Below are positions 8,213-21,571 of a DNA stretch of 64,000 bases, one piece after another (positions within the stretch are counted from its first letter, which is position 1; the number at the start of each line of letters is the position of its first letter). The notes under the pieces were generated by a model, which was given only the letters and a program-made list of their open reading frames with translations, did not search any database and had not been told where the DNA came from. The stretch is from Promethearchaeota archaeon. Its GTDB lineage: Archaea > Asgardarchaeota > Lokiarchaeia > Sigyniarchaeales > SOKP01. The translations under genes and the position numbers were made by a program. The stretch spans positions 248,001-312,000 of the forward strand of contig JAUWGH010000003.1 in assembly GCA_030606485.1 (NCBI GenBank), given 5' to 3'.

Positions 8213-9517
8213 TTAATGGGTTGCACAAGAGATACATGGGTCAAACGATCTTATAATCATTTGCGCTTGTTTTTTTATCTGATTAAAATCCCCAGTTCTT
8301 TCATATAATTTTTGGCTTTGTGTTGTTAGGATTTCATCAATAATTGGCAAATTAATTTCAGTTGCAATAAAAAGCTTCACTTTATCAATTAATCTCTTTT
8401 TATTTACATGATAATAGTGTATGAGAGTTCCTCGAGGTGCTTCAACCATGCCGAGTCCTTCATTATTTCTTAAAAAATTAATGGGACGTATATCATTTTT
8501 TTGTGTCAATTCAGTATCGTCTAGAATTGATAACCCTTCGTAAGAAACAAACATCATTTCTATTAGCCTGATAACGTTTGAGAATAAAATACTATTTTGC
8601 CATTCTTTATTAAAAAGTCCAATATAGGATTGCAGTTCATCTATTCCATAATCATTAATTATTTTATATCGTGCGAGTGGGCCAACAAGAATGTTTTGGT
8701 TGTTTTTTAAATAGAAATCAATTCCACGTATATCCTCCTGCTTATCAAAATATTGCGAATGTTTATATACGGGAAAATCTGCGATAATTTTATTATTTTG
8801 TGCTAATCGTAAGAGTCCATTATACCGGTCATATTTCTCATCATTATGCATTCCCATATAAGCAGGATTTGGTAAGGAATAAACATCAGGAGGATCAAAT
8901 TGAGAAAATATCTCTTGGAATCGCTCAATAATCCATTTTAAATTATTTATAGAATTTTGCAGATATTTCCGTGCAATATTTATTTCTTTTTTGGAAGGAG
9001 AAAAAAATACACCACCGATAATGGGCGTTATTAAATGAACAGACCTTCCACCAAATAAATTCCCAATTTCATTGCCAATTTTTATTAATTCATACATATT
9101 TGAAGTTAATTTGGGATCAAAATGGATTAATTCATTCAGTGAGAGTGGTTTTGGTTGTTTATCCAAAATTACAAAAAGGTCGGGAAATGCTTGAAAAAAG
9201 AAATGCATTGAATGTGATCTTATCAACTCACCAATCATTAATAGTCGTCTCAAAAGAACTGATTGATTTGATGGTTCGACTTCATACATACTCTCTATTG
9301 CTTTACAACTAGCTATTGTCTGTGATGCGTGACACAATCCACATATTCTTGATGCAATTCTAGGAGTATCGATTAGCCTTTTGTCAAGTAAAATATTTTC
9401 AAACCCTCGAAATATCTCAAGATCAAAATTCACACTTGAAATTTCATCTTTCTGAAGTAAAATTTTTATATTTCCATGTCCTTCCACCCGAGTGCATACA
9501 TCAACTACTTTCTTCAT
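8213..9517 (-). CDS. mvhA: [NiFe] hydrogenase large subunit, MvhA-like (group 3c type)
   Basis: 434 residues. It opens with the family sequence TRVEGHGNIKI, has the first metal-binding motif RICGLCHASQ (Cys59, Cys62) and the last one, DPCISCATH. The four Ni-Fe cysteines are therefore present. Two oddities: the residue normally His at the end of the first motif is Gln66, and translation stops directly after the final His, so the C-terminal peptide usually removed by a maturation protease is absent. Paired with the MvhG-like small subunit 6 bp upstream and the HdrA-MvhD fusion, it should oxidise or produce H2 with electrons passing through MvhD to HdrA in the cytosol. Confidence 0.88.
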   Translation of the reverse strand: MKKVVDVCTRVEGHGNIKILLQKDEISSVNFDLEIFRGFENILLDKRLIDTPRIASRICGLCHASQTIASCKAIESMYEVEPSNQSVLLRRLLMIGELIRSHSMHFFFQAFPDLFVILDKQPKPLSLNELIHFDPKLTSNMYELIKIGNEIGNLFGGRSVHLITPIIGGVFFSPSKKEINIARKYLQNSINNLKWIIERFQEIFSQFDPPDVYSLPNPAYMGMHNDEKYDRYNGLLRLAQNNKIIADFPVYKHSQYFDKQEDIRGIDFYLKNNQNILVGPLARYKIINDYGIDELQSYIGLFNKEWQNSILFSNVIRLIEMMFVSYEGLSILDDTELTQKNDIRPINFLRNNEGLGMVEAPRGTLIHYYHVNKKRLIDKVKLFIATEINLPIIDEILTTQSQKLYERTGDFNQIKKQAQMIIRSFDPCISCATH

Positions 9518-9523
9518 AATTTT

Positions 9524-10285
9524 TTACCTCTTGGTTTTTGGTTTTGAATAACGATAGAAAATTCCTTTATATTTCCTTAGACCTTTGGCAAGATTTACAG
9601 TGCTCAAAAAATTAATGGCATTAGAGGTAAAATCGTTTTTAATTGGTCCCATGCACCCATCACAAGGAAGGTTCAATTTAATGCACTTAGATTCACAACC
9701 ATCTCTAGTTATTGGTCCCAAGCATAAAATTCCTCTTTCTAAAAAGCAACGTTTATCTTTATTTTCGATATCTAAGTTATATTCTCTAGGCATTAGTTTA
9801 TTAATTCGTTTCATAAATTTGCTTTCAATATTATCAGTTCTAAATTCGCAATCTACACAAACATTTTTTTCAGGCAAAATAATCTCTTTATTTTCTAGCA
9901 GTCTAATAATACAATTGCCTAATAATTTAGAAGGTGGTGGACATCCAGGAATTATTCCATCTATTTCTATATAATTGGATATGGGTTCTGCTTCTTTTAC
10001 AGTGGAAAGTGCAAGCATTCCACCAAAAGCAGCACAAGTTCCTAAAGCAATTACTCTCTTGGATTTACTCCGAATATTTTTAAGAATATCGATTTGTTTT
10101 TCCTCTGAAACACATCCCTCAATTAAAGCGATATCATTTTCAGAGATATTATTTTCATCTCTCATAAATGAACAACGAACGAGATTTACCTTTTCAAGAA
10201 ATTGAGGAAAGATATCTAATGAAATCATTGTTGAGATACAACCACTACAAGAAGTCAATGATTCGATTAAGAAACTAGGTTTCAT
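9524..10285 (-). CDS. mvhG: [NiFe] hydrogenase small subunit, MvhG-like
   Basis: About 253 residues, carrying three iron-sulfur clusters. Visible cluster ligands are SLTSCSGC near the N-terminus, EGCVSEEKQ, GTCAAFGG, PGCPPP, and a C-terminal ferredoxin-like set (CLGPITRDGCESKC, LPCDGCMGP) typical of F420-non-reducing hydrogenases. The start at 10285 (MKPSFLIES) is preferred over the ATG at 10312 because a strong GAGGAG Shine-Dalgarno lies 7 bases upstream (10293-10298) and the alignment to the family begins there. This start overlaps the end of the HdrA fusion gene by 11 bp, indicating translational coupling. Electrons should move from the MvhA active site through this subunit to MvhD. Confidence 0.9.
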   Translation of the reverse strand: MKPSFLIESLTSCSGCISTMISLDIFPQFLEKVNLVRCSFMRDENNISENDIALIEGCVSEEKQIDILKNIRSKSKRVIALGTCAAFGGMLALSTVKEAEPISNYIEIDGIIPGCPPPSKLLGNCIIRLLENKEIILPEKNVCVDCEFRTDNIESKFMKRINKLMPREYNLDIENKDKRCFLERGILCLGPITRDGCESKCIKLNLPCDGCMGPIKNDFTSNAINFLSTVNLAKGLRKYKGIFYRYSKPKTKR

Positions 10286-12806
10286 TTTTAATCTCCTCTG
10301 ATAATCTTTCATAAAAAGAATTTACAATCTCTGCAAATTTATTGCCCTCAACTGCACTTAATGATTTACGAATTATTCGATTTTCAGCAATAGGACCTAA
10401 AACTTCATTTAAAAGTTTAACTTTTTGTCTTACTTGATCCACACTATTTATATATCGGCAGGAATCTTTTCTGCAACCAATAATCATTACTCCATCAAAT
10501 CCTAATTTGAAAGATTTAAAAATTAAACTCGTATCTACCCGCCCTGTGCATGGAACTTTAATAATAAAGATGTTGGGATTATAGGAAAGTTTCTTTAAGC
10601 CAGCTTCATCGGCTGCACCATATCCGCAAGAACGACAGCAGAATGCGATTATTTTTGGTCGTAAATTGAATTTAGAAAATACCTCAATTGATTTCAGTAT
10701 CTTTTCAGTAGTATCAATGTTTAAGTCAAGTGCATTTGTGGGACAAACACTTACACACGTTCCGCATCCTTTACATTTGAATTTATCAATCGCAATTTTG
10801 TCTGCCTCAATTGTGATTGCATTGTAAGGACAAGATAAAATGCATAAACCACACAATCCGCAATTCTCTTCTTTGATTTCGATACCGCTAAATTCTGTAA
10901 TTAAATAATCATTTGATAACAATGAAATAATTTTAATAGCTACATCATTGGAAGATGAGATCACTGAATTATAATCTAATGGACCTTTAATTGAACCGAC
11001 ACCAAAAATACCTGATGCCAGCGTTTCCTCACTCATAAAACCATGATCGTCTAATGTAAAATCTAAAGTCTTTCGAAGTTCTTTTAAATCTTTATTTGGA
11101 ACAAAATTGACATTTAACACGATCATATCGGAGGGATACTGCTCTGAATCAGAAATAATTATTTTCTTATTTCCTTTCTCTATGATTTCAATATTTTCAT
11201 AATAATGAAATCTTTCATCAGATGGATCTAACATAAATCCAGTAGATTTCTTAATTTTATTTAAATCAAAAAATATGTTAATTTTACAATCAGGAAGTTG
11301 TGAATAAATAGATTCTAAATACTTTATGGCGAGAGTACCACAATATTCCGCTAAATAATCAAATGGGCCTAAACATTGAATTATTGAGATTGATTTCGGT
11401 GGTTTTCCATCAGATAATTTCAAAATTTTACCTTCCGTTGGACCATCCGCTGATAAGATACGTTCAAATTCCGGTGATATAATTACATCATTTTGTGGAT
11501 TATAGTTATAAGGTTTTAATTCAGAATAAAAATCCGCACCAATTGCAATTACTTTTGTTCCAACTCTAATCCTTATTTTTTCAAATTTCTGATCCAAATC
11601 AATCGCATTATTATTGCAAGCTCGCTCGCAAATTCTACATTGTCGGCAAGTTTCAATATCTTCTTGGTCAATCACTGGAGCATATGGATAAGATTGAACA
11701 TAAGGAATATAAATTAACTTCCTTGGTGTTAATCCAAATTCATATTGATTACTTTTTTCTATACTGCAAATTTCAATACATCTTTTACATCCAGTACATT
11801 TCTTTTCATCAACATATCGGGGTTTTTTAACCAAATCAATTGAAAAATTTCCTACTTCACCTGATACTTTTTCTATTTCAGTATTAGTTAAAATTTCGAT
11901 ATTTTTTTCTTTAACAACCTCACCTATCATTTCTGACATAAGACAAATTGAACAATCACCCATTCCATAAATTTTACTCCACCTGGCAATTTTACCTCCT
12001 AATGTTGGGGATTTTTCAATTAAATAAACCTTAATCCCAGCCCTTGCTAGACTTAATGCAAGTGTCATCCCTGCAATTCCGCCACCCAAAATAGCACAAC
12101 TTTTTTCAATCTTAACTGTTTTTACTTGAACATCTTTTTGTAATGCAACACGCTCAACTGCTGCTTCAACTAAAATTTGTGCTTTTTTTAACGCCAGAGT
12201 AGGTTCTTTTAGATGCACCCAGCAACATTGCTCTCTAATATTGGCAATTTCAATATTAACTTTATCAATAACTCCATCAAAAATTCTTTCAAATATATGC
12301 AAATGAGTTTTTGGAGAACACGCAGCAATAACAATCTTATTTAAATAATTATCTTTAGACCATTTAGTAATCTTTTCTAAATTTTTCTCTTGACAAAGAT
12401 TATCAAAAATCTTCACAGCAACTACATTGGGAATTCTTTTAATATAATTTTCAAGTGCATTAATACTTATAAGATTAGAAATTTCAGTATTGCATTTACA
12501 AATAATAACCCCCACTCGATTAATCTCACTACCAACCTTATCCAAATATTCAATATCCTCCCCTGCCAAAATTTTTTTATCAATATTCATTAAATTTATA
12601 ACTCGTTTTCCGTCCTCCGTGAGAAAATAGGATTTTTTATCTTTATTTATTAAAGTCCCAAGTTTTTTAAGGTGAAAGTTTAATTGCCCTGTAGTCTCTA
12701 AACCTAACCTATCCATCAAATCCGTGTAAGGAATATAACCTTCTTTATCAAGAAGTAATAAAACCCTCCTCCTAAATGGATGAGATAAAATTGAATATAT
12801 ATCCAT
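10275..12806 (-). CDS. hdrA: Winged-helix-HdrA-MvhD fusion: heterodisulfide reductase A-like flavoprotein
   Basis: 843 residues. Residues 1-72 form a winged helix-turn-helix (SHPFRRRVLLLL, then TTGQLNFHLKKLG and a FLTEDGKRVI wing) like those of ArsR-type archaeal regulators. From about 97 the protein is HdrA: ICKCN, AACSPKTH, IREQCCWVH, FAD loop GGGIAGM (241-247), GMGDCSIC (281-288), a split cluster pair (CTGCKRCIEIC at 337-347, CRQCRICERAC at 387-397) and two C-terminal 4Fe-4S motifs (649-694). From about 717 it is MvhD (AFCCRSCGYG, PCTGRVDTSL, GCRKDSCRY). HdrA normally bifurcates electrons between ferredoxin and HdrBC, but hdrBC are not in this window. The DNA-binding domain is in frame without an internal Shine-Dalgarno, so the fusion looks real. 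Confidence 0.9.
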   Translation of the reverse strand: MDIYSILSHPFRRRVLLLLDKEGYIPYTDLMDRLGLETTGQLNFHLKKLGTLINKDKKSYFLTEDGKRVINLMNIDKKILAGEDIEYLDKVGSEINRVGVIICKCNTEISNLISINALENYIKRIPNVVAVKIFDNLCQEKNLEKITKWSKDNYLNKIVIAACSPKTHLHIFERIFDGVIDKVNIEIANIREQCCWVHLKEPTLALKKAQILVEAAVERVALQKDVQVKTVKIEKSCAILGGGIAGMTLALSLARAGIKVYLIEKSPTLGGKIARWSKIYGMGDCSICLMSEMIGEVVKEKNIEILTNTEIEKVSGEVGNFSIDLVKKPRYVDEKKCTGCKRCIEICSIEKSNQYEFGLTPRKLIYIPYVQSYPYAPVIDQEDIETCRQCRICERACNNNAIDLDQKFEKIRIRVGTKVIAIGADFYSELKPYNYNPQNDVIISPEFERILSADGPTEGKILKLSDGKPPKSISIIQCLGPFDYLAEYCGTLAIKYLESIYSQLPDCKINIFFDLNKIKKSTGFMLDPSDERFHYYENIEIIEKGNKKIIISDSEQYPSDMIVLNVNFVPNKDLKELRKTLDFTLDDHGFMSEETLASGIFGVGSIKGPLDYNSVISSSNDVAIKIISLLSNDYLITEFSGIEIKEENCGLCGLCILSCPYNAITIEADKIAIDKFKCKGCGTCVSVCPTNALDLNIDTTEKILKSIEVFSKFNLRPKIIAFCCRSCGYGAADEAGLKKLSYNPNIFIIKVPCTGRVDTSLIFKSFKLGFDGVMIIGCRKDSCRYINSVDQVRQKVKLLNEVLGPIAENRIIRKSLSAVEGNKFAEIVNSFYERLSEEIKNET

Positions 12807-13312: not shown

Positions 13313-13972
13313 ATGGAAGTTTTAGAAATCGAGCCGATAAAAAATAAAAAAATTTTTCTTTATATAATAGAGAAAGAAGATTATAAAATATCGCACGTAA
13401 AAGCAAAAATTTTCGAGGACTTTTTAAAAAATTATAAATTTGATTTTGCTACTATTGACTTATTGGGTAAAAATTTAAAACCATTAAATAATTCACCCAT
13501 AGCGAAATTTTTAGAAGATTTTTCAATCGAATTTATCGGTATTGACATTCCTGAATACGCAAAAGGTTATTTATTGGTAGAAATATCCGATAAAAAAGAA
13601 CAAATTAAGGAATTAGAATCAGAATATGAAAGTTTATCCAATGATCCCTCTGGAAAAGAATCATTTAAGGGGCAAAATCTAAAATCTTGGATTGATTTAT
13701 TAAAAGAGGAAGTTAATGATAAAGAACAATATATAAAATTAAAAGTTAAGCCTCAATGGATCGTTAAAAAAATATTGGACAGGGCAAGAACTTATAAGAA
13801 AAATTCCTTAATTATTTTACATTTAAGTCCAGAAGAATTAGTTCCTGAATTACAAAAATTGTTTCAGGAACTCAAAATAAATGTTATTATAAATGATTTT
13901 AGCACTGGAGTTTCAGATCGAACTTTTGATGCTAAGAATAAAGTAATAATTTCAAATCAAATCATAAAATAG
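13313..13972 (+). CDS. Accessory-domain protein A1 (short paralogue, no MtdB)
   Basis: 219 residues. The N-terminal MEVLEIEPIKNKKIFLYIIEK, the central KKEQIKELESEYESL and the LKSWIDLLKEEV segment align with the protein encoded at 16101-16733, and more distantly with the first 240 residues of the MtdB fusions at 13986 and 17475. Predicted layout is beta strand, helix, strand (KFDFATIDLLGKN), strand (FIGIDIPEYAKGYLL), long helices, a C-terminal strand (NSLIILHLS) and a last strand-helix unit. The FICDK.HFDGI motif of the longer paralogues is lost here. No enzyme motif recognised. First gene of a plus-strand cluster; its stop overlaps the Shine-Dalgarno of the next gene. Confidence 0.8.
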   Translation: MEVLEIEPIKNKKIFLYIIEKEDYKISHVKAKIFEDFLKNYKFDFATIDLLGKNLKPLNNSPIAKFLEDFSIEFIGIDIPEYAKGYLLVEISDKKEQIKELESEYESLSNDPSGKESFKGQNLKSWIDLLKEEVNDKEQYIKLKVKPQWIVKKILDRARTYKKNSLIILHLSPEELVPELQKLFQELKINVIINDFSTGVSDRTFDAKNKVIISNQIIK

Positions 13973-13976
13973 GAGG
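13971..13976 (+). promoter_or_regulatory. Shine-Dalgarno deciding a TTG start
   Basis: AGGAGG overlaps the stop of the preceding gene and sits 9 bases before the TTG at 13986. This supports TTG as the real start and shows tight coupling of the two genes. Confidence 0.7.
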
Positions 13977-13985
13977 TAAAAAAAA

Positions 13986-15668
13986 TTGCAAGTATTAGAA
14001 TTAAAACCTTTAAAAAATAAAAAATTAGAAATAATATTAATGGAAAGTGAGTTTCCAATTAGTTGGTGGTTGGAACCAACAAAAGAACAGCTGGAAGAAT
14101 CTTTAAATTTCAGTTTTATGTCAAAGGATTATCTCAAGCTTATTGAAGACATGTTGCGGAAATATCAACCTAATTTTGTAGCTGAAGAACGAGGGTTGCG
14201 TGAAAGTGATAAACTTCATTATGATGATGCTTTTATTGATTTATTTAGAGATTTTAAAATACTATATAAAATGGTAGATATTAATGAAAATGCTTTGGGG
14301 TATCTCGCTTCAACAATAGATAAAAATGCAGATCTTCTAAATGGAATAAAAGCAGAAATTAAAAAAATCAAAAAAAAGGGAGGTTTTCATCCTAATGATC
14401 ACTATTTCCAGCAATTAATTGTTTGGGAGGACTATTTACAGAGTGAATACAAAAATCAAGAGGAAGAAATAAGGTATAAGATCCGAGAAGCTTGGATGAT
14501 GATGGGGGTTCTTGACATAGCAAAAGAACAGAAAGAGAAAAACTTAAAATGTCTATTTATTTGTGATAAAAGGCATTTTGATGGTATTACAAGCCTTGCA
14601 GATGATCTGGGAATAGAAGTTCAAAAATTTGAAGTTAAGAAAAGTATTTTAAATATTGGGGATTTAGCGAAGCCAAATACGATAAAAGAGTTTATAAAGG
14701 TATCACTTATGGAAGTCGCCCCCATTAAAATAAAGAAAACAAGTTCCTTAGAGAAAATTGTGTATTTTCTTGATACAGACGAGCATGCCTCTCCCTTTGA
14801 TATTAATATGGCCTATGATGCAGGATTTGATGTAGTTATTCCTATTAACAATGTAAAAGCTGAACAAGTGCCACAACTCGTGCAAGATGCGATATTCTCG
14901 CGAAAGCCAAAAGCTCCGACCAGTTTTTTCATTGGTGGAGCGAATGTAAGGGAAGGCGAAAAAATTGCAAAAGAAGTTGTAAAGTCGTTGGTACCACCCT
15001 TCGAAGTCCCTGTGGTCATAGACCCGCGAGGGTCTCATACTACGGCTTCGGCAGTTGTTGCAAAAACTTTGGAAGCAGCAATGAAAAATGGGATAAATAA
15101 TATTTCTGGAAAAAAAGCGGTCATATTAGGAACTGGTCCTGTCGGGCGAATTGCAGCAATAATTGCGGCAAAACAAAATTGTGAAACAGTTTTAGTTGAG
15201 ACATGGGATAAGGGAAGTGAAAAAGCTGTAAAGCAGCTTGCAAAAGAATTAACTAAAGGGGCAGGAGAAGGTGCTTCTGAAATACTTGGAGAATTCGCAA
15301 TAACGGATGAGAAAAAATTTGAAATAATAAAAGATGCTGATATAATCTGGTCTTTAGCAGCTGCAGGAGTTCAAATCTTATCAGAAGAATTGATGAGTAA
15401 ATTACCAAAAAATAAAATCGTAATAGACATTAATTTAGTTCCGCCATACGGAATTGAAGGAATAAAACCAAAACACGATAATAAAGAAATATATCCAGGA
15501 ATTTTTGGAATTGGAGCATTAGGAATAGGTCATTTAAAATCTAATACGGAAAGTTCTATTCTTAAAGAAGCTACCAAAACCAAAGGAAAGAAAATATTCG
15601 ATTATAACATTGCTTTTGAAATTGCAAAAGAATTATTATTTGGTAAAGAGATTACAATATCTCGTTAA
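13986..15668 (+). CDS. Fusion protein: accessory (TraB-like?) domain plus MtdB-type methylene-H4MPT dehydrogenase
   Basis: 560 residues from TTG. Residues 1-240 are the long form of the accessory domain, with QPNFVAEERGLR (61-72), KMVDINENALGYL, IREAWMMMGVLD (166-177) and LFICDKRHFDGI (190-201). Residues about 255-560 match NAD(P)-dependent methylenetetrahydromethanopterin dehydrogenase: YFLDTDEHASPFDINMAYDA, LVPPFEVPVVIDPRGSHTTA, the Rossmann loop GTGPVG (382-387) and VDINLVPPYGIEG-like IDINLVPPYGIEG. MtdB alone is about 300 residues, so the extra N-terminal half is a fusion. Expected reaction: oxidation of methylene-H4MPT to methenyl-H4MPT or the reverse, in the cytosol. The N-terminal function is unknown; its layout recalls TraB/Tiki proteins (inference). 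Confidence 0.85.
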   Translation: MQVLELKPLKNKKLEIILMESEFPISWWLEPTKEQLEESLNFSFMSKDYLKLIEDMLRKYQPNFVAEERGLRESDKLHYDDAFIDLFRDFKILYKMVDINENALGYLASTIDKNADLLNGIKAEIKKIKKKGGFHPNDHYFQQLIVWEDYLQSEYKNQEEEIRYKIREAWMMMGVLDIAKEQKEKNLKCLFICDKRHFDGITSLADDLGIEVQKFEVKKSILNIGDLAKPNTIKEFIKVSLMEVAPIKIKKTSSLEKIVYFLDTDEHASPFDINMAYDAGFDVVIPINNVKAEQVPQLVQDAIFSRKPKAPTSFFIGGANVREGEKIAKEVVKSLVPPFEVPVVIDPRGSHTTASAVVAKTLEAAMKNGINNISGKKAVILGTGPVGRIAAIIAAKQNCETVLVETWDKGSEKAVKQLAKELTKGAGEGASEILGEFAITDEKKFEIIKDADIIWSLAAAGVQILSEELMSKLPKNKIVIDINLVPPYGIEGIKPKHDNKEIYPGIFGIGALGIGHLKSNTESSILKEATKTKGKKIFDYNIAFEIAKELLFGKEITISR

Positions 15669-15673
15669 ATTCA

Positions 15674-15712
15674 AAACTCACTTCTTTTTTTTTATTTTTT
15701 TTTATTTTATGT
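15674..15712 (+). terminator. Poly-T terminator after first MtdB fusion
   Basis: After the stop at 15668 come runs of nine and ten T interrupted by single A residues. No clear stem precedes them, which fits U-tract-driven archaeal termination. Confidence 0.5.
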
Positions 15713-15807
15713 TTAATTAATATAGAGCATATTTTAATTAATGATAAAAAAAGAATTGTATAGTTGATTATTTTAATTATCAATTTTATCAAACTTCTTT
15801 TGTTATA

Positions 15808-15955
15808 TTTTTTTCATAGTAAGTTCTAAAAAAGAAAACTTTTTAATTTTTGACAATAAGTTTTGTTATTTTGATTAGTGCAGTTGTCTATTTTTTCAAA
15901 ATTTTTTTATCAAAATTTTTTCATAACTAATTCTAAAATAGAAATCTTTTAATTG
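15808..15955. repeat. Imperfect direct repeat, about 40 bp, period 107 bp
   Basis: Copy 1 at about 15808-15850 and copy 2 at about 15915-15955 share a T-run, CATA, TTCTAAAA, AGAAA, CTTTT and AATT in the same order, with a handful of mismatches and one gap. In AT-rich DNA the significance must be tested. Confidence 0.45.
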
Positions 15956-16100
15956 ATGATAAAAAAAATGGTCAAAATGATAAATTAATTAGTCAAATTT
16001 CTTAAAATCTTTCTTATCAAATACATTAAATGATTGGATTTAAATTAATTAAATAGAAAAAAAAAATTTCAGAATATAATAAAATTTGGAATGGGTAAAA

Positions 16101-16733
16101 ATGGAAGTATTAGATTTTAAAAAATTGGAAAATAATAAGAAGGTTTCTCTATATCTAATAGAAAAGGATAAAAAAGAATTATCTGACGCAGAACATGAAA
16201 ATTTATTGGCTCTCTTAAGAAAACAAAAATTCAATTTTGCTACGATTGATTTAAGCGATGATGATTTAAAAAAGATTTACCTGACTCCTTTAGCACAATT
16301 TTTTGATAATTTTGGGATACCATATTATTATGTTAATATCCCTGACTACGCTAAAATTTATTTATTAAATGAAATCTCAGAAAAAAAAGAACAAATTGAG
16401 GAATTACAAGGAGAATATGAGAAACTCTGTTCAGATCCTGCCGAGAAAGAGTCATTAAAGGCTCAAAATCTGAACTCATGGATACACCTCTTAAAAAGTG
16501 AAGTAAAAGACAAAGAAAATCATTTAGATTTAAAGCTAACACCTTTATGGATCACAAAAAAGGTATTAGATATAATTAAGATGATTAATGACGATGAGAT
16601 TAGTATTATTCATTTTACCCGTAAAGAATTGTTTTCTGAATTGAAAAAGTTATTTGAATCTCAAAATATCAAGGTTATTAATCTTGAGACAAGCAAAATT
16701 ATGAAAAAAAAATCAATTTTAATTTTAACTTAA
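16101..16733 (+). CDS. Accessory-domain protein A2 (short paralogue, no MtdB)
   Basis: 210 residues from the ATG at 16101, chosen over the TTG at 16086 because MEVLDFKKLENNKK then aligns exactly with the start of the paralogue at 13313. Strong similarity runs through FNFATIDLSDDDLKK, YVNIPDYAKIYLLNEIS, KKEQIEELQGEYEKL and LNSWIHLLKSEVKDKE, so the two short genes are a clear duplicate pair. Like A1 it lacks the CDK.HFDGI motif of the long form. Last residues (ILT) are shorter than in A1. It is followed after 18 bp by the stand-alone long-form paralogue, with a Shine-Dalgarno at 16736-16741, so the A-then-B gene order of the first unit is repeated. Function unknown. Confidence 0.8.
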   Translation: MEVLDFKKLENNKKVSLYLIEKDKKELSDAEHENLLALLRKQKFNFATIDLSDDDLKKIYLTPLAQFFDNFGIPYYYVNIPDYAKIYLLNEISEKKEQIEELQGEYEKLCSDPAEKESLKAQNLNSWIHLLKSEVKDKENHLDLKLTPLWITKKVLDIIKMINDDEISIIHFTRKELFSELKKLFESQNIKVINLETSKIMKKKSILILT

Positions 16734-16735
16734 AT

Positions 16736-16741
16736 AGGAGG
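16736..16741 (+). promoter_or_regulatory. Shine-Dalgarno of accessory-domain gene B2
   Basis: AGGAGG lies 10 bases before the ATG at 16752, matching the arrangement before the gene at 13986. Confidence 0.65.
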
Positions 16742-16751
16742 TAAGTAAAAA

Positions 16752-17450
16752 ATGCAAGTATTAGAATTAGAAAGATTAAAAAATAAAACTCTTAAATTGT
16801 TATTAGTAGAGAGTGAATTTCCAATAGATTGGTCATTGGAAGCATCTTCAGAGGAAGAAGCTATTGCTGCAAAATTATTTATTATGTCTAAGAAATATTT
16901 GCAGTTTATTGAAGATATAGTAAAAAATCACAAGCCAGATTTTATAGTGGAAGAAAAAGGAATGCGCTCAAGTGATGATTTACAATATGATGATGCTTTA
17001 GTAGATTTATTCAGAGAATATAACATTCGATATAAAATGGTTGATATTTCCGAGAATGCTTTAGGTTATCTTGCTTCGACAATTGACAGAAATGTAGGTC
17101 TTTTAAAAGACTTTAGAGTAGAAATTGAAAATTTAAAAGAGAAGGGTGGTTTTCATCCTAATGATTTTAAACTTGAGCAATTAGTTGCCTGGAGGGATTA
17201 TTTACAGGGCGAATATTCTAATCAAGAAGATGAGATAAGATATGAAGTCCGTGAATCTTGGATGATGATGGGGATTCTTGATTTAGCAAGGAAGATTGAG
17301 AAAAAGCATTTAAAAGCAATATTTATCTGTGATAAAGAACATTTTGATGGAATAAAATCTCTAGCAGATGATTTAGGAATAAATATTGAAGTAATAAATG
17401 TAAATAAAATTTTAAAAAAAATAGAACAGCATTCGACACAAATTAATTAA
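16752..17450 (+). CDS. Stand-alone accessory domain B2 (long form without MtdB)
   Basis: 232 residues that correspond to residues 1-230 of the two MtdB fusions: LKNKTLKLLLVESEFPIDWSLE, HKPDFIVEEKGMRSSDDL, YKMVDISENALGYLAS, GGFHPND, VRESWMMMGILDLARK and AIFICDKEHFDGIKSLADDLGI are all kept. It ends where the dehydrogenase half would begin, showing that the accessory domain is a self-standing unit. Whether the MtdB half was lost here or never present cannot be told; no MtdB remnant is visible in the 24 bp before the next gene. Probably forms hetero-oligomers with the fused copies. Function unknown; TraB/Tiki-like topology is an inference from the PDFIVEE-like strand and the C-terminal FICDK.HFDGI strand. 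Confidence 0.82.
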   Translation: MQVLELERLKNKTLKLLLVESEFPIDWSLEASSEEEAIAAKLFIMSKKYLQFIEDIVKNHKPDFIVEEKGMRSSDDLQYDDALVDLFREYNIRYKMVDISENALGYLASTIDRNVGLLKDFRVEIENLKEKGGFHPNDFKLEQLVAWRDYLQGEYSNQEDEIRYEVRESWMMMGILDLARKIEKKHLKAIFICDKEHFDGIKSLADDLGINIEVINVNKILKKIEQHSTQIN

Positions 17451-17474
17451 AAAATAAGAGGTAATTTTTATAAA

Positions 17475-19148
17475 ATGCAATCTTTAGAATTAAAACCTTT
17501 AAAAAATAAGACTCTTAAGTTAGTATTAGTTGAGAGTGAATTTCCAATAGATTGGTCGTTGGAAGAGCCGACAGGGGAAGAAGCCATTGCTGCAAATATA
17601 TTTTTTGTTTCTAAGGAATATATGGAATTTACTGAAAATTTGGTGAAGAAATACAATCCTGATTTTGCAGTAGAGGATAAAGGGATGAGGTCAAATGATA
17701 GGCTGCTTTATGAGGATGAATTTGTAGATTTATTCAGAAAAAATGAGATCCCCTACAAAATGATAGGCATCCCTGAGAATGCTCTAAATTATATCTCCTC
17801 GGGATTGAATGGTAGTAAAGAACTTATAGAGAAATTTACTTCGGAGATTAGGGAATTAAAAGAAAAAGGCGGAGTTCATCCAAATGATCCACATTATCAA
17901 CAATTAATGATGTGGAGAGAACATTTACGGGATGAGTATAATAAGCAGGAAGATGAGATAAGATATAAAATCCGCGAATCTTGGATGATGATGGGAATTC
18001 TTGAATTAGGAAAAAAAATGGAGAAAAAACACTTGAAGGCATTATTTATTTGTGATAAAAGGCATTTTGATGGCATTTCGACTTTAGCAGATGATCTTGG
18101 AATTGACATTGAACAAATAAATATCAAAAAAGTTGCTAAAGATTTTCATGATGATATTTCTTCGGTAAAAGAATTAGTAAATACATCTGTTCTCGAAATA
18201 ATCCCGATAAAGATAAAGAAAAAAGTGAAGGCGGAAAGTATTTTGTATTTTTTTGATACTGATGAATATGCATCACCTTTTGATATTAATATGGCCTATG
18301 ATGCAGGGTTTAATGTTGTTATTCCTTTTTGCAACATTACGGCTGATAGAGTCGCTAGATTGGTCCAAGATGCTATGTTTTCACGAAAACCAAATGCTCC
18401 AACCGTTTATTTTGTTGGTGGATCAGATGTTGAAGAAGGTGAGAAAGTTGCAGAAGAGGTACAAAATGCACTTGTTCCTCCTTTTGAGGCCCCTGTAATT
18501 ATAGATCCTCGTGGAGCTCATACTACGGCTTCAGCTGTTGTTGCTAAAACCATAGAAATTGCAAGAAAACACGGAATAACAGATTTTACAGGAAAGAAAA
18601 TAGTTATTTTAGGGGGTACGGGACCAGTAGGACAAATTGGAGCGATACTTGCAGCTAAATTTCACGCTACACCCGTAATAATCTCCCGTCGGGAAAAGGC
18701 TGTAAAAGAACTTGCAAAGAAATTAATGGAAAAAGCAGGAGAAGGCGCTTCTGAAATAATTGGAATAGCGGCAACCACCGATGAAGAAAGATTTGAAATA
18801 GTAAAAGATGCCGATATAATTTGGTCAGTTGCAAAAGCCGGAATTCAAATGATATCAAAAGAATTAATGAAAAAACTCCCGCCAAACAAGATTGTTCTTG
18901 ATATTAATTTAGTTCCACCTTACGGAATTGAAGGACTAAAACCAAATTCTAACGACGATGAGATTTATCCAGGGATTTATGGAATCGGTGCTTTAGATAT
19001 AGGACGTCTTAAATATAAAATTGAAAGCCAGATTTTTAAGGATGCAACCAATACCAAGGGAAAGAAGGTGTTCGACTATAACTATGCTTTTGAAACAGCA
19101 AAAAAGATACTATTCGGAACTGAAATTACAGTTACACACACAAAATAA
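17475..19148 (+). CDS. Second accessory domain-MtdB fusion protein
   Basis: 557 residues, paralogue of the protein at 13986. The accessory domain (1-240) keeps YNPDFAVEDKGMR, IRESWMMMGILELGKK and LFICDKRHFDGISTLADDLGI. The MtdB half keeps YFFDTDEYASPFDINMAYDA, LVPPFEAPVIIDPRGAHTTA, the dinucleotide loop GGTGPVG and DINLVPPYGIEGLKP. Compared with the first fusion its loop has the canonical extra Gly (GGTGPVG rather than LGTGPVG), so cofactor preference may differ. A GAGG Shine-Dalgarno at 17458-17461 precedes the ATG at 17475. Two divergent copies in one cluster suggest two dehydrogenases with different electron acceptors, or subunits of one complex (inference). Confidence 0.86.
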   Translation: MQSLELKPLKNKTLKLVLVESEFPIDWSLEEPTGEEAIAANIFFVSKEYMEFTENLVKKYNPDFAVEDKGMRSNDRLLYEDEFVDLFRKNEIPYKMIGIPENALNYISSGLNGSKELIEKFTSEIRELKEKGGVHPNDPHYQQLMMWREHLRDEYNKQEDEIRYKIRESWMMMGILELGKKMEKKHLKALFICDKRHFDGISTLADDLGIDIEQINIKKVAKDFHDDISSVKELVNTSVLEIIPIKIKKKVKAESILYFFDTDEYASPFDINMAYDAGFNVVIPFCNITADRVARLVQDAMFSRKPNAPTVYFVGGSDVEEGEKVAEEVQNALVPPFEAPVIIDPRGAHTTASAVVAKTIEIARKHGITDFTGKKIVILGGTGPVGQIGAILAAKFHATPVIISRREKAVKELAKKLMEKAGEGASEIIGIAATTDEERFEIVKDADIIWSVAKAGIQMISKELMKKLPPNKIVLDINLVPPYGIEGLKPNSNDDEIYPGIYGIGALDIGRLKYKIESQIFKDATNTKGKKVFDYNYAFETAKKILFGTEITVTHTK

Positions 19149-20290: not shown

Positions 20291-21571
20291 ATGGCTAAAA
20301 CAAGAACTATTGAAGAAATTACACAAAAAATCGAAAAAAACACCGCCGTCGTAATGACGGCGCAAGAATTCTTGGATAACATTGCAGAGGGTGAAAAAAT
20401 TGAATTCGAAGATGTTGATGTAATTACAACTGCGACAAAAGGATTAATGAGTGGAATTGCTGGAATATTTTCTTTTCGATTAGCTGAACCAAAAAAATAT
20501 AGAAAATTTAAAGAAATAACCTTAAATGGAATTCCCGGTTATGTTGGTCCATGTCCTAATGAATTTTTAGGCGTAATTGATGTAATTGTATATAGCACAG
20601 CTCATAGTAAAACGAGAACCAATTATACAGGTGGTTTTTTATTTAGAGATCTCGTTGAAAATAAACCAATTGAAATGAAAGCAGAAACTGAAGAAGGAGT
20701 CGTAATAGAGAAAATGTTGAGCTTAAAAGATATGCAATTTGCAAGACTAATGGGGACTCGTCAAGCAATTAAAAATTATAGTGCAATGATGAATCCAACA
20801 AAAGAATATGTAGAGACTATTTTTTCAGCTCTAAAATTTGAACCAAATAATTCTCAACTAACATTTTCTGGGTGTGGAGCATTAAATCCACTTCAAAATG
20901 ATCCTGATTTTGAGACTATTGGAGTGGGTACTCCTGTATTAGTTAATGGAAGTATAGGATATGTTATGGGACCAGGAACTAGAAATTATATTTTAAAACC
21001 AAATTTAATGACTATCGCAGATTTTGAGGGAATGAAACCCGAATATATGGGTGCATTTATGACATCATATGGACCAGAACCAATATGTTCTATTGCAGTA
21101 CCATTTCCTATTTTGAATGAGAAGATTCTAAACAATATGGTTAAATCAGATAAAGATGTTCCTCTTCAAATTTTAAACTTAGTTGGAAGAGAAAAAATGG
21201 GTGAAATTACTTATGGGGATGTCTGGGATAATAATTACCTAATAACATTTGATCCTAAAAAATGTATAAAATGTGAAACTTGTCCAGTTGAAACTGATTG
21301 CCCAACCCATGCATTTACTGTGGAAAAGGGTATTGATAAAACAAGATGTTATAATTGTGGAACTTGTATTCAAATGTGTCCTGAACCCGCTTTTATTGGT
21401 GATTTAAAAAGCATTAAATTTGAAGGTAAGGAAGTTCCAGTCGTATTACGTCAATCAGATAGATTCGGAGCAATAAAATTAGCGGAAGAATTAAAATCAC
21501 TAATTTTAAAAGGAGAATTTCCTTTAAAGGAGTCTATTGCAAAAATAAAATTTTATAAATATAAGATATAA
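20291..21571 (+). CDS. DUF39 homocysteine biosynthesis protein fused to 2x[4Fe-4S] ferredoxin
   Basis: 426 residues. Residues 1-320 match the DUF39 family (TTATKGLMSGIAGIFSF, GIPGYVGPCPNEFLGVIDV, SGCGALNPLQNDP, GTPVLVNGSIGYVMGPGTR), whose methanogen members make homocysteine from aspartate semialdehyde and sulfide. Residues about 324-375 hold two ferredoxin motifs: CIKCETCPVETDC, then CYNCGTCIQMCPEP. In methanogens the DUF39 protein carries CBS domains and the ferredoxin is a separate protein; here CBS is absent and the ferredoxin is joined on. Likely role: cytosolic sulfur incorporation with reducing power supplied internally. A GC-rich hairpin (20344-20362) lies close to the start of this apparently leaderless gene. 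Confidence 0.85.
   Translation: MAKTRTIEEITQKIEKNTAVVMTAQEFLDNIAEGEKIEFEDVDVITTATKGLMSGIAGIFSFRLAEPKKYRKFKEITLNGIPGYVGPCPNEFLGVIDVIVYSTAHSKTRTNYTGGFLFRDLVENKPIEMKAETEEGVVIEKMLSLKDMQFARLMGTRQAIKNYSAMMNPTKEYVETIFSALKFEPNNSQLTFSGCGALNPLQNDPDFETIGVGTPVLVNGSIGYVMGPGTRNYILKPNLMTIADFEGMKPEYMGAFMTSYGPEPICSIAVPFPILNEKILNNMVKSDKDVPLQILNLVGREKMGEITYGDVWDNNYLITFDPKKCIKCETCPVETDCPTHAFTVEKGIDKTRCYNCGTCIQMCPEPAFIGDLKSIKFEGKEVPVVLRQSDRFGAIKLAEELKSLILKGEFPLKESIAKIKFYKYKI
20344..20362 (+). other. GC-rich hairpin near the 5' end of DUF39 mRNA
   Basis: CGCCGTC and GACGGCG form a perfect 7-bp stem around a GTAAT loop, inside codons 18-24. It is the most GC-rich patch in the surrounding kilobase and starts 53 bases after the ATG of an apparently leaderless message. 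Confidence 0.45.

Follow-up and report, generated by a model that had tools for sequence, protein, structure and literature searches.

The closest described relatives of the dehydrogenases considered here are MtdA and MtdB of methylotrophs (PDB entries 1lu9, 6tge, and 6tlk), which are single-domain enzymes. A complex that joins a C1 enzyme to electron-transfer subunits, MetFV-HdrABC-MvhD, has been purified from Moorella thermoacetica, and its C1 enzyme is a methylene-H4F reductase (PMC5861303). In the open full-text literature, a coverage outside which most subscription papers and preprints lie, we found no account of MtdB in Asgard archaea. Models of syntrophy and of the origin of eukaryotes depend centrally on how these archaea balance electrons in their one-carbon metabolism.

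In the window, the whole 64,000-nucleotide stretch of DNA that was analyzed, five plus-strand genes at 13313-19148 contain one common domain (Table 1): two short accessory proteins (S), one stand-alone long accessory protein (L), and two fusions of L to MtdB. MtdA/MtdB itself is known; what is new is the undescribed S/L family, its conserved gene arrangement, and the old pair of fusion paralogues with Glu-type and Arg-type cofactor fingerprints.

Results

Five genes with one accessory domain

Table 1. Accessory-domain genes and neighboring electron-transfer genes in the window
Feature	Coordinates	Strand	Length (aa)	Evidence and remarks
MvhA/VhuA-type [NiFe] hydrogenase large subunit	8213..9517	-		NCBIfam VhuA 5.4e-50; Ni-binding motifs RICGLC and DPCISC both in translation
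MvhG/VhuG-type hydrogenase small subunit	9524..10312	-		NCBIfam VhuG 1.2e-37; Oxidored_q6
HdrA-type flavo-iron-sulfur protein	10275..12806	-		Divergent from S1; NCBIfam HdrA2 1.7e-179, Pfam FlpD 1.8e-34, DUF7347 1.5e-10
S1, short accessory protein	13313..13972	+	219	Homologous to L, hhalign E 1.3e-25; one gene upstream of L throughout Lokiarchaeia
LM-A	13986..15668	+	560	L domain (residues 1-224) and Glu-type (NAD-like) MtdB (residues 244-551); Mpt_N 6e-27; PDB 6tlk 2.8e-35; GTGPVG...VETW
S2, short accessory protein	16101..16733	+	210	45% identity with S1
L-C, stand-alone long accessory protein	16752..17450	+	232	57-62% identity with L domains of both fusions
LM-B	17475..19148	+	557	L domain (residues 1-225) and Arg-type (NADP-like) MtdB (residues 242-546); Mpt_N 8.5e-26; PDB 6tlk 1.1e-34; GGTGPVG...ISRR

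A first-pass annotation of this DNA had described one paralogous accessory domain without a database family in five neighboring genes, two copies being fused to an MtdB-type dehydrogenase and one being an extra stand-alone copy, and this description was borne out. The open frames lie in place, L-C being the extra copy, and S and L were homologous in profile comparison (hhalign E of 1.3e-25 with 23 and 17 rows, and of 1.5e-41 with 66 and 50 rows). Searches of Pfam, NCBIfam, and PDB sequences gave zero matches for S and L. By sequence, they constitute an Asgard protein family without a database name and a predicted partner of MtdB.

The L domains are 56-62% identical in pairwise comparison, and the S pair 45%. 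The open frame of S2 starts at a TTG at 16086. S1 and LM-A are separated by 13 bases, a gap of 432 bases follows, and S2, L-C, and LM-B are separated by 18 and 24 bases; these gap sizes suggest two operons, S-LM and S-L-LM. No further copies of the accessory domain were found in the same genome beyond the five genes. Purifying selection acts on all five, with dN/dS values of 0.13-0.39 against a congener, and since the stand-alone L alone has a value of 0.29, it is not a decaying fragment.

MtdB halves and their fingerprints

In both fusions, the C-terminal 300 residues matched MtdA/MtdB over their full length, including the Mpt_N and Rossmann domains (Pfam Mpt_N at about 1e-26; PDB 6tlk, 6tge, and 1lu9 at about 1e-34 over about 290 residues). 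The F420-dependent Mtd family (PF01993) had no match in the fusions; the Pfam scan gave Mpt_N and not MTD.

Both LM-A and LM-B carry an NAD(P) fingerprint after Rossmann strand 2. At the end of this strand, the MtdB halves have either [IT]SRR after GGTGPVG, which resembles the 'CGRK' of MtdA, or VETW after GxGPV[GA], and the Glu fingerprint occurs in most of the remaining MtdB halves. An acidic residue at this position is the usual mark of NAD use, and an arginine that of NADP use. Consequently, LM-A is probably NAD-like and LM-B probably NADP-like, as predicted from the fingerprint.

In the MtdB tree, the Arg-type sequences of Lokiarchaeia group together in a single clade of 17 rows (SH-aLRT 97), which lies within the Glu types. 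The 47 sampled assemblies comprised 28 with the Glu type only, six with the Arg type only, 12 with both, and one with the Glu type and a truncated copy; the 12 with both types are a lower bound, as each locus was found separately. Because the MtdB halves of the two fusions fall into the Glu and Arg clades, and at least 12 of the 47 assemblies have both, the two units of the window are old, diverged paralogues, which probably differ in nucleotide use. Three successive stand-alone MtdB genes of both types were observed in one further locus (L055, G015:C4, 7699-11196), in a genome where neither L nor F420-dependent Mtd was detectable.

Distribution in Asgard archaea

The fusion or its parts were found in 38 of the 58 relatives, and L in 70 of the 228 genomes searched of the phylum. 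Among named records, L was confined to Lokiarchaeota/Lokiarchaeia, Helarchaeota, and Sigynarchaeum in a scan of genome collections whose patterns catch just close relatives. The unit in Lokiarchaeia consists of S followed by L-MtdB, encoded either by two genes, S and the fusion, or by three separate ones, S, L, and MtdB. Several other classes have a fused L-MtdB with no S seen nearby; one other family (f22) does have S. Since the split forms sit inside the fused forms in the MtdB tree, the L-MtdB fusion is probably ancestral within Asgard archaea and splitting derived.

The stand-alone L-C is present in three congeners (G001-G003) and not in a fourth (G004), and it groups with the L of LM-A and not with that of LM-B, with moderate support (SH-aLRT 91). 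Judged by these genomes, only the extra L copy is genus-specific. The first-pass annotation had derived the duplicated fusion set from duplication of a unit with one extra copy, and it had called for a survey of the gene order in Asgard genomes. That survey found the S-L-MtdB order, fused or split, repeatedly in Lokiarchaeia and L-MtdB in further Asgard classes, so the set is not a one-off. The extra copy stands; a simple recent duplication does not, the MtdB halves belonging to different clades, Glu and Arg, that lie side by side in many genomes.

Four split operons (L088, L091, L093, and L101) contain an Arg-type MtdB with a stand-alone L. The L of those placed in the tree (L088, L093, and L101) belongs to the Glu-type split clade, and Nfn genes adjoin L088, L091, and L093 and are not found at L101. 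Because Arg-type MtdB is thus combined with an L of the Glu clade, S-L looks modular and not bound to one cofactor. Some S paralogues have neither L nor MtdB with them: they adjoin a lipoamide-dehydrogenase-like FAD/NAD oxidoreductase of about 515 aa in five loci (L151, L152, L153, L156, and L157, the copy in L156 being cut by the contig end) and HdrA-like genes in another (L155).

Electron-transfer neighbors and C1 pathway context

The unit of a divergent HdrA gene followed by S, L, and MtdB, fused or split, is kept in dozens of genomes and in another class. HdrA, mostly divergent and with MvhG and MvhA, adjoins 35 of the 38 Glu-type units versus four of the 19 Arg-type units, whereas an NfnA-like gene with an FrhB-NfnB fusion adjoins 11 of the 19 Arg-type units and none of the 38 Glu-type units; these counts were compiled by hand, and related genomes in the sample inflate their p-values. 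In the genus of the window, the Arg-type unit lacks the Nfn module as a neighbor; the module is located elsewhere on the same contig (L176), a few kb from Mtd. The FrhB-NfnB and NfnA-like genes make up a possible F420-linked Nfn.

The HdrA-type protein of the window joins an N-terminal HTH (DUF7347) to a C-terminal MvhD/FlpD, an unusual combination of a DNA-binding-type and an electron-transfer domain. In L036 (10882-13668) and L176 (2831-5566), FrhB is joined to an NfnB/GltA-like chain with an N-terminus that is HTH-like by eye, beside the NfnA-like gene.

F420-dependent Mtd is a separate gene of the same genome (G000:C8:113690-114499), located near the Nfn module on the same contig, and Mtd and Ftr lie near or downstream of the unit in eight loci (L070-L073, L076, L095, L098, and L105). 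Canonical Mch is encoded in this genome and in nearly all L-bearing genomes. As Mch and Mtd are present, and Ftr in relatives, H4MPT is the likely carrier. Because F420-dependent Mtd and Mch are also encoded, MtdB is, as judged from gene content, an added branch beside F420-dependent Mtd. Replacement of the F420-dependent Mtd by MtdB as a general rule was ruled out, since Mtd coexists with it in this genome. For the same reason, F420, which the first-pass annotation had listed along with NAD and NADP, is not the natural first assay for the fusion.

No gene of this genome scored above the NpdG (Fno) cut-off. Likewise, no Mer was found above the curated cut-off, only weaker luciferase-like matches, and the next C1 step may therefore use a reductase other than Mer. 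Further along the window, a methanogenesis marker 16/homocysteine biosynthesis (HcyBio) protein (20291-21571) lies beside a glyoxalase/epimerase-like gene (21582) and an acetolactate-synthase-like TPP enzyme (22052).

Fold of the accessory domain

The AlphaFold model of L-C was confident (pLDDT 83.6, pTM 0.80) and shows strands and helices in alternation, together with a long helical hairpin; the S model reached a pLDDT of 84.0 and a pTM of 0.79. The likeness of S and L to the TraB/PrgY/GumN (Tiki) family (PF01963) lies in a fold match of L and in profile matches of both above controls. The top PDB match of L in Foldseek was 8b6h_DQ (probability 0.96, E 0.01); a search with a TraB profile identifies the TraB family protein of entry 8b6h. 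An Asgard TraB profile gave weak matches to L (E 0.002-0.003) and S (E 0.001), while the best of 22 control families reached an E of 0.03; the L and S matches fall in the same region, the R..W/M helix and the next strand.

The first GxxH of TraB is replaced by ExE or KxA in L, and the second keeps its His in most L without the Gly; the Glu after strand 2 is mostly retained. PF01963 did not match S or L even at E values up to 1 and had no matches in the genome. No TraB protein appeared in the Foldseek top 50 of the S model, which weakens this reading for S. L is probably a degenerate TraB-like fold, on weak to moderate evidence. A viral structure library gave no reliable match to L.

R167-x-x-W170 is invariant in L, and W149 is present in most S; on the alignments, the invariant features look structural, not catalytic. 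A metal site formed by E20 and E22 of L was ruled out, as other classes are without both residues.

Discussion

Our preferred reading, to which we assign a probability of about 0.5 jointly with the cofactor split, is that the S/L family docks the pyridine-nucleotide-dependent methylene-H4MPT dehydrogenase (MtdB) onto electron-transfer complexes. We infer docking, dimerization, and cofactor use from the gene order, homology, fusion, fingerprints, neighbors, and co-occurrence with Mtd and Mch described above. An adaptor is the economical reading because S-L stays while MtdB is exchanged, S alone lies beside other flavoproteins, and the units lie beside HdrA-Mvh or Nfn. S and L would most likely act as a heterodimer, with L alone where S is missing, and hydride transfer between methylene-H4MPT and NAD(P) would be the task of the MtdB half. 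In the Glu-type unit (13986), the cofactor would be NAD(H), beside the HdrA-MvhGA hydrogenase, and in the Arg-type unit (17475) it would be NADP(H), in association with the NfnA/FrhB-NfnB transhydrogenase-like module. With the F420-dependent Mtd, three dehydrogenases would then serve one C1 step, linking F420H2, NADH, NADPH, ferredoxin, and H2.

Several points count against docking. The reading rests on gene neighborhood, and the divergent order could reflect shared regulation. Since MtdB has no flavin or Fe-S, coupling to HdrA would need an NADH-oxidizing site. Several other classes lack S near L-MtdB, and in the genus of the window the Nfn module lies away from the Arg-type unit.

A rival explanation is that S and L are only a folding, stability, or oligomerization module of MtdB, with the HdrA-Mvh/Nfn neighborhood reflecting shared metabolism and co-regulation. 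Such a module would be consistent with L being dispensable (two genomes, G015 and G007, keep MtdB without detectable L), with the faster change of L and S than of the MtdB half in the dN/dS comparison with the congener, and with the L-MtdB fusions that have no S. We consider it possible, if rather unlikely, given that S is likewise found next to other flavoproteins where L and MtdB are missing and that S-L is retained when the MtdB gene is exchanged.

A sensor of ligand or redox state that regulates MtdB, allosterically or via the HTH-bearing HdrA, is improbable: the HdrA neighbor and, by eye, the FrhB-NfnB protein start with HTH or HTH-like stretches, whereas Pfam and NCBIfam searches found no HTH or known ligand-binding family in S or L themselves. 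Of the 'undescribed C1 dehydrogenase complex or regulator' initially proposed, the complex remains the best reading, and the regulator is unsupported.

FolD is bifunctional for folate, and a protein fused to a C1 enzyme is typically its neighbor in the pathway. A second enzyme domain, such as a methenyl-H4MPT cyclohydrolase, would fit these precedents and the near-invariant polar residues E5, R167, and W170 of L, but is very improbable, as the presence of Mch rules out L as a missing cyclohydrolase, other classes have K/R and A in place of E20 and E22 so that no conserved catalytic set is visible, and the TraB-type GxxH motif is absent.

In an extension of the docking reading, which we regard as doubtful and offer tentatively, S/L would connect the parts of a flavin-based electron-coupling C1 complex of an undescribed class, in which L-MtdB of the NAD type sits on HdrA-MvhGA (H2, ferredoxin) and L-MtdB of the NADP type on an F420-linked Nfn. 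If this were true, one adaptor family would let Asgard archaea link a single H4MPT step with H2, ferredoxin, NAD(P), and F420. The two versions of the dehydrogenase unit, which look built for NAD and NADP and are kept in many genomes, this one included, point to a possible route for one-carbon electrons in these relatives of eukaryotes. They also yield a sharp prediction, two MtdB paralogues of opposite nucleotide preference docked by S/L, which is testable with recombinant proteins without culturing.

Compared with MtdA/MtdB of methylotrophs, the Asgard enzymes share the whole-length match, the GxGPVG motif, and the conserved Lys near the C-terminus (ALGIGxLK), and LM-B also has the Arg of MtdA at the NADP position. 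Unlike these single-domain enzymes, the Asgard form is preceded by an undescribed 225-residue domain with a homologous S partner, and it comes as Glu-type and Arg-type paralogues. The module beside Arg-type units matches NfnAB transhydrogenase and the FrhB/FpoF F420 subunits in its NfnA-like protein and FrhB-NfnB fusion, and differs in that a single chain, HTH-like at its N-terminus, contains both FrhB and NfnB. MetFV-HdrABC-MvhD of Moorella (PMC5861303) likewise combines a C1 enzyme of the methylene branch with HdrA/MvhD-type subunits and is an analogue in kind, not a homologue; the Asgard unit, known from its genes and with HdrB and HdrC not seen in the neighborhood, instead has a dehydrogenase with an S/L partner.
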